Positions 2,679-55,138 of a stretch of DNA of 64,000 nucleotides are shown one piece after another. The DNA lies in the NCBI GenBank assembly GCA_001630475.1, contig KV419399.1, positions 332,552 through 396,551 on the forward strand, read 5' to 3'. The translations under genes were made by a program, and so were the position numbers. This DNA comes from Sistotremastrum niveocremeum HHB9708 (lineage: Eukaryota > Basidiomycota > Agaricomycetes > Sistotremastrales > Sistotremastraceae). Under the pieces are notes generated by a model. It had not been told where the DNA came from. It saw only the letters and a program-made list of their open reading frames with translations, and ran no database searches. How positions within the stretch are numbered: the first letter of the stretch is position 1; every line of letters begins with the position of its first letter.

Positions 2679-3606
2679 CGTGATAAGTTGAAAAGTGCGA
2701 TTCGGTTGAGGAGTGACAAGTCTAAGTGAAGCTGGAGCTCTGAGAGGACAGATGTCATATTGTGAGACCTCAAACCCAGTATATATGCTTCCTGGGATCG
2801 GCTACAGTACTCAATCTGAGAAGCAATCCTGTGAGTTCACTCCAATACGCAGCTCAAGTTCATCTAGACCCTACTGGGGTCTTATCAAGACAGCTGCACT
2901 AGCAAGAGAAGCGAATGTATGAGCTCAATAGATCAAGTATGGGTATATCGTAACCTTCGTGGAATCTGAGAAGAGGCCAAGGACTGGATGAGGGATGATC
3001 AGTCACTTCAGTTCTCACCATTGCCATTCCCCATGATTCCAGTCAGGAACACCGCGTCTTAAACTCGTAGTTACTCATTCAGTGCGGGTGGGCTCGGCGT
3101 CGAAACAGCTTCGTGAAATTTAAGAAGCGTTCATTTTTGCAGAAGGCTGACCGAGATCCAGGATCGAGAATGACAGTGTGAGCGCGGTGGAACCGCCCGC
3201 CTTTCAAGAGAGCTGCGTGAGTATGGCGTCGAAGTAAGCCGGAGGTCCATACAAGCCTACAGAAAACACATGAACAAGCAGTGACAGTGGGGTGATGTTT
3301 GCTCCTTGGCCCTGTTTAGATTGGTCGGGCCATCGGCGCTAAAAATGAAGCTGGAACAATTGAACTAGAAGTTCCACGACTGTATAGCAGAAGACTTGCA
3401 TAGGGTAATTGCGAACTCACAGTATTGTAATCCGTAGTCCATGTCTCGAGTCAAATCCGATTTGAGGGTGACACAATGTCGTCAGTCAATAATATGCACC
3501 GCGATGACCTCGCAAGTTTCCGATAATACTGACAACTAAAGTTACCGTCGGTATCGGCCCAATGTACATGCAGGTTGTATATTATTCAAGTGAGACCCCT
3601 AATATC
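2679..3606. other. Intergenic, P450 promoter to tRNA
   Basis: About 930 bases with only short open frames and no recognisable domains, repeats or RNA. The left part presumably holds the P450 promoter. Confidence 0.5.
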
Positions 3607-3680
3607 TGCCTGGTGGCGCAATTGGTTAGCGCGTTCGACTGTTAATCGAGAGGTTGTGAGTTCGAGTCTCACCCGGGCAG
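3607..3680 (+). tRNA. tRNA-Asn (GTT anticodon), no intron
   Basis: A 74-nt cloverleaf folds fully. The acceptor stem is TGCCTGG (3607-3613) with CCGGGCA (3673-3679). The D stem is GCGC/GCGC around AATTGGTTA. The anticodon stem TTCGA/TCGAG closes loop CTGTTAA, with GTT at 3641-3643. The T stem GTGAG/CTCAC closes loop TTCGAGT. The discriminator base is G (3680), as expected for tRNA-Asn. There is no intron, and CCA is not encoded, as usual in eukaryotes. Confidence 0.97.
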
Positions 3681-3961
3681 TTATTTTGCAAACTTTATTC
3701 TGCACATCCAGACATACGAAGTGCAACCACTGGCATTGAGCACGGCTGTCAACTCGGAGACTGCTCATTGCATGCGGTCGTCTTCCTCTTTTATGAAAAG
3801 AAAGGAGAATTGCCGTGATTCGATGTGATGGCCAAGAATCATGATCTATATAACGATTTCGTGGCCAATTCGTACAGCTTGAATACAATAAAGTATATAT
3901 GAACAAGCTTGAGCTATGTATGCAAGTAGCCAAGTAACTTAACGGTCCATACATGTCGCGC

Positions 3962-49617: not shown

Positions 49618-51412
49618 CTAGGTTTGTAAGGATCGCCCCTGAAGTCTTCTCTTCGCCTTATTCAAGGTCTTTCTGATGGCCTTGAAGGGTCCGATTCTAG
49701 AAGATGGTCCTGCAACCGCCGTTTCATTCGACTCCTGTTCCTCCTCGAGGTTACGCATCTCGCGCTTTCTCTTGCCCTCACGACGCGGCAAGTCCCCAAT
49801 CACCCATGTTTCGTCGACTTCATTCGACGGACCAGCCCCAGGAGTATCAACCCCACCGTCAGTTTCTGAAGCCAGAAAATATGCATCAACGTCCCGACGG
49901 ACCCTCTTCGAAGGACGTGGGATCATTGATGAAGATGCTGAAGTTTGTCTCTTGGTTCCACGACATGGGCTAGGGCTGCTGCGGTTGGTATATCTGGTAT
50001 CGCCCATCTTGACTGGCGGAGAAGGGGGAGACAAACCCAATTCGACGTCGTATTCGGACTGTGCATCGAGTTCAGAGGTGGGGTCTTCGGCGTCTGGAAC
50101 GGGTGCAGCTGAATCGACCAATGATGGAGATGCAGGTACGGAATGAGTAGGTTGGGCGGTCGGGTCGACTGAGTTGGAAGCAGTGGGGTCTCGAAGGACG
50201 ACCGTCCTGTCACAATACTCGCAATGCTCGCGCAGCCTGAGGAAACCGATAACTTCCGTAATCGAGTCAAGGATTCGTTCGCGCAGGGCCAGATCTTTGA
50301 CGAGGTCGAAGAACTGAAGAAGCCGACCTCGCTGCCAGAGCCAGTCACTGAATGCTGCGAGTTGGTTTGGCTCAAAATTCTGGATCATTTCGAGCGTCAG
50401 AGATATACAATCGATAGATTATAGTGCTTACCCCTGAAACCTGTGCGCGATTGAGTATTGTCTCATTGCAGGTATTACGACCACACCCAAAATCACCACC
50501 AGTTTCGGCCTCTGCAAGCGCCATCCAATGATGTTCCAACTGAGACAAATCCAGTTCTGGAGCAAGGGTCTCGACGCCGTCCTTCCAGAAACCTCTAGAA
50601 GGTTCATCCGCGAAGCTCCAACCTCCCTCTATCATAATCATCGCCAACGGAATCATAATTCCGGAGAGATATTGAAAATTAATCACTCCGTGTACGTGCT
50701 GAGCCTCTCGAATGGTTGCCCTCGCAAGGGCCCTTCTATTATGCGAGACGGCAAACGACATGATGATGGTGGCGGCGGTACGAAAGAGAGCCAGAGAATG
50801 ACCCGCAGCGTGCGCGAGGAGTAGCATACACATCTCGGTGAGCGAGAAAATCTCATTCTGGGATGAGTGCTCTAGTTTTGAAAGCCATTGGGAGAGTAGT
50901 GCGGTTAGGACTGCCGGAATGACCGAGTCCCATGTATCGAAGGGGGAGGCGAGGATGTGAGGAATGAACCTGGATTTCTGGTTAGACCTTACAGGAGTCA
51001 GCTGAGAGTAATCCACACACCTTCTGTTGAGGATCTCAAAGACTTTGGGCCCACCGAGGCTGGAAGATAGTGCAATATGCTCGAAAAACGACGCAGGCTT
51101 CTCGTACATTCTCCTCGAAGCCTCCAAAAGAAGTATGTCGATTGATTGTTGAACCTTCTCTCGTAGAGGGCTCAAGTCCATCTCGGAGAAAGCGGAAGAT
51201 TCGACGATATGAATAACGAAAATCAAAACGAGTGCTGTGTCGCACGCTCTGACAGCGATCCCGGCTGCTTCAGCTAGGAGAGCGATGACGCCTGCGCGTA
51301 AAGATATCGAGCACGCGGCCAGGTATGCAAAGTTGATGGCGACAAGGCTATTGTAGAGCCTGGAGGTGATACGAGCTCGGGGAACTTGAAATGTGGAGGG
51401 TTCAGATTCCAT
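49618..51412 (-). CDS. Unrecognised basidiomycete protein
   Basis: I do not recognise a family. ATG at 51412 starts MESEPSTFQVPRARITSRLY. Three exons splice cleanly: RR|FIPHILASPFDTWDSVIP and AQVSG|NFEPNQLAAFSDWLWQ. The first 400 residues are helical and hydrophobic (AINFAYLAACSISLRAGVIA, ALVLIFVIHIVESSAFSEMD, IMIPLAMIMIEGGWSFADEP) but do not form clear transmembrane segments. They look like alpha-solenoid-type packing. The last 180 residues are Pro/Ser/Asp/Glu-rich with basic clusters (RPSKRVRRDVDAYF, RREGKRKREMRNLEEEQ) that could be nuclear localisation signals. It ends RRLQGRSLQT at 49618, about 560 residues. It is convergent to HEM14. A nuclear role is only a guess from the basic tail. 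Confidence 0.75.
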
Positions 51413-52728
51413 TGGGAGAAAAACCTGAGACTGCTAGCAGGCACTAGCATATATGGATCACAATAAGGCCTGGAAATCTGAAAGGGAACGCTCTTACAAG
51501 CGTAGCGGCAGCAGAACAGGGGTGTTTGGAGAGTTGATGAGTTCAAGATGTCGATGGTCGCGGAGCCGTACAGTATAGCGAATGAAAATGACAACTGAAG
51601 CTCAACGAAGAGCTACAGAAAAAACGAACGTGGATGCTACGTAGGCTGTAGTGGCGGTTGAAGATGAGGGGAGAAAGGAAGGGGCAGCGAAATGTTCAGT
51701 CCATATATACTGTCATTTCCATGTCAAACGTCCGGATGATAATTTACGAAAAATCTCGGGACATGCCGGAGAACCTCAGCGCAACTTCGAAACTCACTCT
51801 GCTCCCGCTTTGAGATAAATGAAAAAATCCATCCCCGCTGAGCTCTTATTCCCACCTGCATTTCGATGCACATCATTTACAGGGGTTTGCGTCAAGGTCC
51901 ACTACATTCTGATAGACAGCGACGCACTTCAGACAGGCATTGAAGTCGACGAGAAACTTTACTCAGTTCGCGCGTGGTTCAGTGCGTCCCGACGGATGAT
52001 CGGTCCCGAGGGTGTCATGCTTGTGAACTGAATAATAAGCACATAATGCATGGACGACCATCTGACTTAGATGCTCCAACTTGAAATTTTTGGTCAGGAT
52101 AATGTGCAGACTATGAACAACTGAAACGATTTATCAGAGAAATACTGCTAGAGGGTTCACCTTCTCTTTCCAGAACAGACTTAGTAACGATTGAGCCAAG
52201 CAGCCCTCACGAAGAGATCTGAAACATGGTCTAAAATCATTTCGACCAAGCGGATATATTTTCTGTGGCGCTCGAATTGGATGACATGGAAAGGATCTGT
52301 ATCAGGTGAATGGCATTTTGTTTTGCACCGACGAGATGTTAACATTGAGAGCTCTCGATACTTTGCTTACTCTTGATATCTCACATTACACGCATTGCGT
52401 AACAATAGTATGCCAGCCGAGCACTATCTACACAATATCTACAATATTCTAGAGCGATCGGCCTTTGAAATGATAGATCCAATACTATGCATTGGTAGAA
52501 GAGCGCGGAAGATATCCTACAGTGAGACGAGTGCCTTCGTCAAGTACGGAGCCTCGGCCCTCAGGTCGCTCGAAGCCATCCAAGGAGCTGCTCGTGACGT
52601 TTGTTTCTCTTATTGATCTACAATTTCTAGGATAGATGATAGTCTAAGTACACGGTTGATCAAAGTCTGCAGCAAACATTGACAACTCCCTTTGCTGGGA
52701 TCTCATCAGTGTCTAATTGGCGCGAGCA
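51413..52728. other. Intergenic, nothing recognised
   Basis: About 1.3 kb up to the palindrome. Short frames (51819-52031, 52191-52376, 52395-52616) show no domain or splice partner. A 13-base motif AACATTGACAACT at 52675-52687 recurs beyond the palindrome's right side. Confidence 0.45.
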
Positions 52729-54091
52729 TGACTAATCAACTGACCTGTGCTATAACTGCGGCGTGCAGGGACCAGGAAGGATACGGAATGTACTAGTGAA
52801 TAGACTGGACTTCCTTCACGCAATCAGGCAGTGAAATAGTCAAAATAATAATAATGGCGAGTGTCTCGCCGCTCCCAAGATCAGATCAGGGAGTGGCGGA
52901 TGGGAACAAAAACAGAAACGCTGGGAGGCCCCCGCCCACACCTTATGCCTCGCTACGCCATCGCCTGCTTCTAATCACAGACGGGTACCCATGGGGAACA
53001 TGCCCCACGAGGCCAGGCAGTTTGTGTGGTTACCTTGATATCGGGAGGGTCCCAACGCTCCTTGAAGAGTACTGGTAGGCTCCGAGCAGTCCTGAACCAA
53101 AAAATTGATTGTGAAAGGACTCGGGTGTCGATTCGTTCAGTGGAAAGAGTTGTGTAGCTGTTTGAGAGAGCCTGAGGAAATGCGACCAAATTTGTGATCA
53201 AATTACGAAGGGGAATATGCAGTGAAGGTTGTGACTTGTGAGGACGACCAATGCAGATCTTTTAGGTATGATTCATCAGCTAAATTTTTGATGCTGTATT
53301 TTTTAAAGAATATCTAGAAAGAAAAGGCATAAGAGGAGAGCAAGAAGCCAGTCGAGGACAAGTAGAGCATCGGAAGCAACATCGGAGTTCGGAGTAGTAT
53401 TCTTTCCATGGAAGTCGGGACGGAAGCAGAGGGAGGGCAGAAGCAAACCTTGCCGAACTGCGATGCTGCTTCCGATGCTTTATTCATCCTCTTTGAGTGG
53501 GTTCGCGCTATCCTTTTGTTTCTTTTCGTTCTAGATATTCTTAGGATAACACTGCCTCAAACCTAATCACGCCACTCGATAAAACCTTAGCTTTCCATTG
53601 AGCATTCTCTCGACCGCCCCTTCGTATTTCCTTCACGATCTGTTTAAGTCTCTCTCATTCAGCTACACCACCTTTCTCTCTGAACGAATGGATACCCGAG
53701 TCCTTTCACAATCAATTTTTTGGTTCAGGACTGCTCGGAGCCTACCAGTACTCTTCAAGGAGCGTTGGGACCCTCCCGATATCAAGGTAACCACACAAAC
53801 TGCCTGGCCTCGTGGGGCATGTTCCCCATGGGTACCCGTCTGTGATTAGAAGCAGGCGATGGCGTAGCGAGGCATAAGGTGTGGGCTGGGGCCTCCCAGC
53901 GTTTCTGTTTTTGTTCCCATCCGCCACTCCCTGATCTGATCTTGGGAGCGGCGAGACACTCGCCATTATTATTATTTTGACTATTTCACTGCCTGATTGC
54001 GTGAAGGAAGTCCAGTCTATTCACTAGTACATTCCGTATCCTTCCTGGTCCCTGCACGCCGCAGTTATAGCACAGGTCAGTTGATTAGTCA
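52729..54091. repeat. 1.36-kb imperfect palindrome (foldback-like element)
   Basis: The first ~440 bases (52729-53170) reappear reverse-complemented at 53650-54091 with only a few mismatches, from TGACTAATCAACTGACCTGT at the outside to GTAGCTG...GAGAGAG inside. Further in, two diverged inverted blocks pair: about 53307-53327 with 53522-53541 (AGAATATCTAGAAAGAAAAG type) and 53364-53392 with 53452-53480 (GCATCGGAAGCAACATCG type). The innermost ~60 bases (53393-53451) form the loop. So the whole segment is one nested palindrome, with the outer arms far better conserved than the inner ones. Each arm carries the same reading frame, described in the findings. It encodes no transposase and could be a foldback or MITE-like element or an inverted gene-fragment duplication. 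Confidence 0.9.
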
Positions 54092-54113
54092 ATCTATAGC
54101 ATGGAGTAACAAC

Positions 54114-54162
54114 ATTGACAACTACGCAGGCTTTCCGTCAACGTCGAGAGACGGAGTTGTCA
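54114..54162. repeat. Short stem-loop right of the palindrome
   Basis: ATTGACAACT at 54114-54123 pairs perfectly with AGTTGTCAAT at 54153-54162, with an additional CCGTC/GACGG pairing inside. The same motif, ATTGACAACTCC, occurs at 52678-52689 left of the large palindrome. Confidence 0.8.
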
Positions 54163-55138
54163 ATAATCCCACGAGCAGACTTCGTTCTGTCGTCTCACAT
54201 TTATTGTCGGCGTTGTCGTGCCTCAAGTTCGGGAATATCTCTATGAGATGGTCGTCAATAAATCCTGCAGAGGGCATGGTATGAGGGACTTATCAATGGC
54301 ACGACGCTATTTATTTGTAGGAGCACAGTCATTGTCTTGACTCACAATATCTGTACCTGGATGGAAAAACTCTACAACTGGTGAGCATTGAAACGTCAGG
54401 GATGCAGACAAAGGTTCACTGACAACCGCGTGCGCAATACATAATAACCTGCTCCAAGATGTAGGTTCAAGTTAGAAATTCGGGACTTCGGGCTGCAAAT
54501 GAATCCTGAGACTCAGATGAATGCGTGGCGAATATTCACAAATCACAGCTTACTTGGAAGGTGCGAATCTCGCAGAACGTTCCTCGAAAATAATATGTAC
54601 ACACCATAAACTGGAGGTATTGTGAACACGTCAACGCCATATTATATAGTGGGCCAGCCGTGGGCTTTTTTTATGAGAGCAGTATCTCTGAGACCAATAG
54701 TTCAAGAGCGCTGTCAACATCCCTCCAATACGGTTGCCCTGAAGTTATCAGCGCAGGCTTTTCAGGTGTGAAGACCGGAACTCGAGACCAGTACGCAACT
54801 ACATCGAGTCATCGAAGTCGACTCGGAGAGCAACGCACGGCGTGGTGGCCGCAGTGTATGGCTCTACCACAACAACCTTTAGACCATCTTCTTCATATCT
54901 AGGACTCATCCACTTACTCGCGTTGCATATCGCACTTGAGTATCACAAGACTAACCCACTTTAGTTCCGATTGGCCACCTCGACATTATCATGAGGTGCC
55001 GGCCGGCGCCTTTCTCAAAGAGGCATCCGCCAAGTCACGGCCGGCCGATCGCCGAGCCATATCAAGCCAGAACCCAAATGCCAGCAATCGTTCGCAGTCC
55101 AGCCCACTTTCTCCTCTATCCAATCTACTCAGAGCACT
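54163..55138. other. Intergenic, promoter side of the glycoprotein gene
   Basis: About 1 kb with no supportable gene. GC-rich patches with GGCCGG occur at 55000-55050. It should contain the promoter of the gene starting at 55139. Confidence 0.45.

Follow-up and report, generated by a model that had tools for sequence, protein, structure and literature searches.

A nested palindrome in the basidiomycete Sistotremastrum niveocremeum probably represents a head-to-head pair of genes for a structured RNA

Introduction

How does a palindrome come to have outer arms that are almost identical around a centre whose two halves have diverged, and what do such arms encode? The question is raised by a locus in a 64,000-nucleotide stretch of the Sistotremastrum niveocremeum HHB9708 genome, hereafter the window. 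A preliminary description of this DNA had suggested that the transcript of the palindrome might fold into a long hairpin and feed RNA silencing, and that the locus could also be a foldback transposon or a bidirectional promoter duplicated together with its first exons. Our analysis of the palindrome and of its relatives in the genome points to another product, a compact RNA domain encoded once in each arm.

Results

Anatomy of the palindrome

The inverted-repeat search of the window delimited a palindrome of 1.36 kb (52729-54091), in which two arms of 445 nt, 97% complementary to each other, lie 473 nt apart (Table 1). An inverted match of 445 bp at 97% is, judged by inspection, far above chance, and the palindrome is real. 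The outer 398 bp (52729-53126 against 53694-54091) contain one mismatch, at 52933. Inward of this tract the arm-to-arm identity drops abruptly to 36-72%, with indels, and consecutive 50-column blocks of the alignment hold 36, 18, 24, 36, 34 and 27 identities, gap columns counted in. Inverted blocks are retained toward the centre at 53287-53358/53490-53561 (72 nt, 74%) and, innermost, at 53354-53392/53453-53491 (39 nt, 85%), and the stretch 53393-53452 lies between the halves of the innermost block. The nested architecture given in the preliminary description, with near-identical outer and diverged inner arms, was thus confirmed.

Several short sequences recur around the arms. TTCCGATGC is found upstream of both arms and of the C12:750k member described below, and the 13-bp AACATTGACAACT flanks the palindrome as a direct repeat; as a control for the latter, 150-bp pairs were drawn at random from the window 20,000 times, and 12 of these draws shared a 13-mer. 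We also observed an inverted copy of ATTGACAACT at 54155.

Table 1. Positions of the palindrome features in the window
Feature	Position	Strand	Basis and remarks
Left arm	52729..53173	-	Outward RNA read on minus strand; inverted-repeat search, arm alignment
Right arm	53647..54091	+	Outward RNA read on plus strand; inverted-repeat search, arm alignment
Diverged centre	53174..53646	.	Putative shared upstream (promoter) region of both RNA genes
GCTTCCGATGC	53367..53377	-	Mirrored in both centre halves
GCTTCCGATGC	53468..53478	+	Right half of centre
AACATTGACAACT	52675..52687	+	41 bp outside left arm; direct copy beyond right arm
AACATTGACAACT	54111..54123	+	19 bp outside right arm
Domain D, left arm, outer stem included	52919..53057	-	Model match 52933-53040, 62.2 bits, E 7.3e-17
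Domain D, right arm, outer stem included	53763..53901	+	Model match 53780-53887, 61.7 bits, E 1.1e-16; fold
3' hairpin after D, left arm	52867..52899	-	Sequence and fold
3' hairpin after D, right arm	53921..53953	+	Sequence and fold
Possible 5' hairpin, left arm (weak)	53082..53124	-	Right-arm equivalent z -1.61; relatives have a strong hairpin there
Possible 5' hairpin, right arm (weak)	53696..53738	+	Fold z -1.61; 13/200 shuffles fold as well

Other repeats occur in the window. The direct repeats 11684-13837/14022-16203 (69%) and 16434-18098/22297-23943 (66%) are probably tandem gene duplicates, and two short inverted repeats lie close together at 57975-58016/58168-58209 (90%, 42 bp) and 58239-58307/58445-58513 (75%, 69 bp).

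A structured domain in each arm

Each arm carries one RNA domain of about 140 nt, termed domain D; the two domains lie on opposite strands and both point outward. As drawn, domain D consists of an outer stem P2, an AAGGU bulge, a helix P3, whose parts P3a and P3b are separated by a symmetric internal loop (AAAC/UMAG), and a three-way junction from which two hairpins emerge: P4, of free length, and P5, with 6-7 bp and an A-rich loop of 9-10 nt. The blocks AAGGTnnnC, CAAACTG, CCTCATG (or a near variant) and TMAGG are fixed among the copies, the hairpin that they enclose ranges from 15 to 40 nt, and the sequence of P2 is unlike between different members. In the window copy, 26 of the 27 drawn pairs are standard, and two of the 26 pairs of the covariance model R1 are marked as non-standard.

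Model R1 was built from 13 copies, with both arms and C47:52.6k left out, and it returned the two arms as the sole matches in the 64 kb at E ≤ 10. When it was run over 206,821 bases in 22 sequence sources at E ≤ 1, the 24 matches were the 24 copies of the family. Base pairs are worth about 12 bits in the arms (62.2 and 61.7 against 49.9 and 49.8 without pairs), although bit differences between models R1 and R2 are rough because the effective sequence numbers of the two models differ. The gain from structure was just 3 bits in C47:52.6k (38.4 against 35.3), which lacks both AAGGT and the model start, and there was none in C12:750k (60.0 against 60.1).

Copies of domain D in the genome

The genome searched comprised 34,710,156 bases in 111 contigs. 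Further copies were among the things that the preliminary description had proposed to look for, and the search found 22 domain copies besides those in the arms. Altogether, domain D is present in at least 24 copies at 11 loci, the counts being lower bounds since they come from sequence searches. Seven copies are single, namely the two arms, C47:52.6k, C47:139k, C84:6.5k, C84:20.3k and C12:750k; the rest form five tandem arrays of two to four copies, at C12:402k, C12:425k and C12:505k (four each), C16:487k (three) and C24:158k (two). C84:6.5k and C84:20.3k form a pair in inverted orientation, separated by about 13 kb and 93.8% identical over 500 bp. The contig that carries this pair, C84, is 43 kb long and rich in direct and inverted repeats. 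Identity among the three C12 arrays is about 90% across 1.5-2.4 kb and extends into the flanks, so that they look like segmental duplicates.

The copies were recovered by several queries. A query of 440 bp from the start of the left arm matched both arms and gave three partial matches, all inside query positions 168-329. Whole-element copies elsewhere were not found in the genome search, itself a lower bound: the inner region was present only at its own locus, and the arm outside positions 168-329 of 440 was found only here. With an array unit as the DNA query, matches fell on the five array loci and C12:750k. An earlier first pattern yielded three copies only. The pattern CAAACTGN{1,6}CCTCRTG gave 27 genome matches against one for the reversed control, of which 21 belong to the family and six do not, judged by context; three further copies carry a one-letter variant of it. 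With up to one mismatch, AAGGTNNNCNYRCAAACTG gave 34 matches, comprising 22 exact ones, all of them family members, and 12 with one mismatch against 19 in the reversed control; one of these 12 is the C47:139k copy. The pattern AAGGTNNNCNYRCAAACTGN{1,6}CCTCRTG had no match in viral contigs and none in prokaryote genomes, as expected for a fungal RNA.

Compensatory changes in the helices

We counted covariation in two ways, with paralogues from this one genome as the rows in every case; the rows are not independent, since array copies are recent relatives. In the first count, made over the 19 distinct rows among the 24 copies and 27 pairs, 93.5% of the cells were paired, and changes on both sides were seen in 12 of the 27 pairs and in 47 cells. 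None of 1000 shuffles matched the paired share, the number of double-changed pairs or the number of double-changed cells, and 5 of 1000 matched the number of pair types; sliding by 1-2 columns lowered the paired share to 36-54%. This count leans toward pairing, because P5 was placed wherever a given sequence paired best, and P4 was anchored at the motifs.

The second count used a MAFFT alignment of 13 rows, from which the window copies were left out, and a structure derived from those rows. The paired share was 94.6%; eight pairs (matched by 1 of 500 shuffles) and 14 cells (matched by none of 500) were double-changed, the covariation score was 0.240 against 0.160 (0 of 500 shuffles), and sliding reduced the paired share to 26-53%. 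RNAalifold, applied to 23 copies, predicted 18 pairs, 10 of which show changes on both sides; P4 was absent from this prediction. P3a is a poor helix: of 19 rows, 15 have a non-standard first pair, with one more unread, and 9 have a non-standard third pair.

The helices are maintained by compensatory changes, beyond both the shuffled and the slid controls. For the window copy, the opposite strand gives a fold of about equal quality (z -2.78 and -2.54 for the two strands). In the 24 copies there are 83 G-U cells against 9 A-C cells; therefore, the RNA strand is the one that points out of the palindrome. These results make it highly probable that the palindrome arms encode a structured RNA.

Comparison with known RNAs and coding sequences

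The Rfam 15 collection (4227 models) was scanned against window positions 52000-55000 and six other loci, the C12:505k, C12:750k and C16 loci lying outside these scans. There were six matches at E ≤ 5, none of which reached the gathering threshold, and no H/ACA snoRNA model matched in the scanned loci. The matches to MIR161 (28.8 bits, against a gathering threshold of 90) and MIR408 fall in the palindrome centre and were taken to reflect hairpin shape only. A tRNA was also considered; the only one that ARAGORN found in the window is tRNA-Asn at 3606-3681.

Coding exons were rejected as well: the four arm ORFs of 88-96 aa had no Pfam match at E ≤ 1, and copies of the family differ by single-base gaps. 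Of the earlier suggestion of a bidirectional promoter duplicated with its first exons, a shared two-way promoter fits our results, while the exons do not. The literature search, in which subscription journals were thinly covered, recognised no earlier description of this RNA.

Surroundings of the copies

In relatives of the arms, a long hairpin stands roughly 45-125 nt before the core. It is capped by UUCG in C12:750k (z -7.00) and C24 (z -3.51); C47:139k has one whose sequence is different (z -5.07), and another is present at C84:6.5k. Among the arrays, the order is hairpin-D-D-hairpin in C24 and hairpin-D-D-hairpin-D-D-hairpin in C12:402k and C12:505k. Farther upstream, CTTTCACAA occurs at -223/-224 in five of the 12 gene copies scanned (five loci); in the two arms it stands at -93. 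TGCCCTAAA occurs at -189 to -201 in seven loci and is absent from the arms. These upstream blocks and hairpins may be read as belonging to RNA genes with promoters of their own. Downstream, runs of at least four T follow D in all six single copies tested, at unlike places and twice inside the P2 strand.

The relation of the copies to protein-coding genes varies. Two members, the left arm and C84:6.5k, are each followed downstream, on the same strand, by a gene; these genes are paralogues (45% identical in amino acids over 333 aa) for which no Pfam family reached its cut-off. TATA-like boxes occupy the DNA between element and gene in the window and at C84. At C47:52.6k and C47:139k the element is faced by a long ORF downstream of it (498 and 477 aa, respectively), and at C12:750k by an aminotransferase ORF. 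The window gene at 49621-51433 (minus strand) has no Pfam match at cut-off and belongs to a small paralogue family with seven genome matches, itself included; its paralogues are mostly on contigs that carry the RNA element (C6, C84, C47 and C12) and also on C3. A class II peroxidase ORF on the minus strand (Pfam PF00141) lies some 2 kb away from the copy at C47:139k; its best solved relative is the manganese peroxidase 1mnp, which suggests a basidiomycete of the white-rot type.

Discussion

We interpret the palindrome as two genes, arranged head to head, for a structured non-coding RNA that matches no Rfam family in the scanned loci, and we assign this reading a probability of about 0.7. The diverged centre would be the common upstream region of the two genes, and each arm would comprise the RNA-coding part and its 3' flank. 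Each RNA would be transcribed outward and, probably, as a standalone gene product, with the outer arms presumably homogenised by gene conversion or template switching. Domain D, of which other members have two to four tandem copies, might serve as a protein-binding module of an RNA-protein complex; a protein-binding scaffold role is, however, a weak guess and rather doubtful. A wider proposal, slightly less doubtful and still tentative, is that the family forms a new class of nuclear structured RNA of mushroom-type fungi, in which a three-way-junction domain, its A-rich P5 loop perhaps docking into the invariant AAAC/UMAG loop, would act as a ligand- or protein-binding module present in one to four tandem copies per gene, with the divergent pair kept identical by copying from arm to arm.

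Other explanations have to be weighed against the divergent gene pair. According to the first of them, domain D is a structured intron or a cis-acting leader: the AAG/GT of the bulge would serve as a 5' splice site, and folding would regulate how a host transcript is spliced or expressed. All copies but one (23 of 24) have the AAGGT block, the stretches after array copies, read by eye, resemble intron ends (CTCAC-pyrimidines-TTGCAG or CTCTAG), and the left arm and C84:6.5k have paralogous genes downstream on the same strand. However, the bases after GT vary (GTAA, GTGA, GTAT, GTTT), and in single copies the CCAG or CTAG after D sits in the P2 strand. Moreover, the ORFs at C47:52.6k, C47:139k and C12:750k face the element, and in the window and C84 a TATA-like box separates it from the gene, so that we regard an intron or leader as unlikely. 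Slightly less likely still is a non-autonomous mobile element, SINE- or foldback-like, of which two copies were inserted head to head. The dispersal of copies over 11 loci, the T-runs after D, which would be possible in a Pol III transcript, and the direct repeat of AACATTGACAACT outside the arms could be taken in its favour. This repeat stands 41 and 19 bp away from the arms, though; no 3-9 bp repeat that could be a target-site duplication abuts them, and around the C84 copies the flanks have no repeat of at least 8 bp in common within 60 bp. The loci share only part of the unit, without common ends, and the copies are few and old, with compensated helices. The foldback transposon of the preliminary description therefore found no support, as abutting repeats are lacking, the inner region is unique and the other loci share the arm only in part.

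Silencing by long double-stranded RNA would require that the palindrome be read through, and the arms, which are almost perfect complements over 398 bp, would be suited to this. Yet the conserved feature is the fold within one arm, and the other members are single or direct tandem copies and not palindromes, save for the inverted pair on C84; we consider a silencing hairpin improbable by a wide margin. Inverted duplications are a known class of assembly artefact. Domain D has independent relatives, however, and a plain fold-back chimera should mirror itself perfectly, which makes it an unlikely source of a palindrome with sharp outer ends and a centre that has diverged and contains indels; an artefact is scarcely to be expected.

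The near-identity of the outer arms calls for its own explanation, since selection on the RNA alone does not account for 398 bp when other members align to the arm only in part. Within the near-identical tract lie the P4 loop, a part that differs from locus to locus, and some 140 bp past the 3' hairpin. Probably, gene conversion or template switching between the arms, confined to their outer part, has made them alike; a recent second duplication of the outer part is the alternative. The preliminary description had proposed, for a palindrome that arose at once, that gene conversion or selection held its outer parts alike; that they were held alike is supported, and gene conversion fits. In yeast, template switching homogenises the arms of short inverted repeats, according to one study (PMC8604942). 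The arm-equalising mechanism would be the same; the repeats there are short, and the tract here is about 400 bp, for which reason gene conversion is as likely as template switching. As the homogenised tract adjoins a diverged centre, the palindrome would lend itself naturally to measurements of gene conversion between the arms.

If the interpretation is correct, this study adds, from a seemingly wood-decaying basidiomycete, a new RNA family that is multicopy, has a compact covarying fold, occurs in tandem arrays and offers a testable fold and gene model. Its features may be compared with those of RNAs known from other systems. The non-coding RUF6 family of malaria parasites (PMC7267889) is a GC-rich group within one genome, and offers an analogy only, with no relation claimed. 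The signal recognition particle (SRP) RNA of basidiomycetes (PMC4605306) was likewise a structured basidiomycete RNA that older models had overlooked; in contrast to it, the RNA described here has no Rfam SRP match in the scanned loci and is multicopy, with tandem domains. The only systematic screen for structured fungal RNAs that we found (PMC8216456) deals with Ascomycota genomes, and the present family comes from a basidiomycete. The candidates of that screen, like ours, are putative standalone structures in fungal intergenic regions that were found by covariation. In three of its four intergenic structures an H box goes with a single hairpin, whereas domain D, compared with them by description only, is built around a three-way junction.
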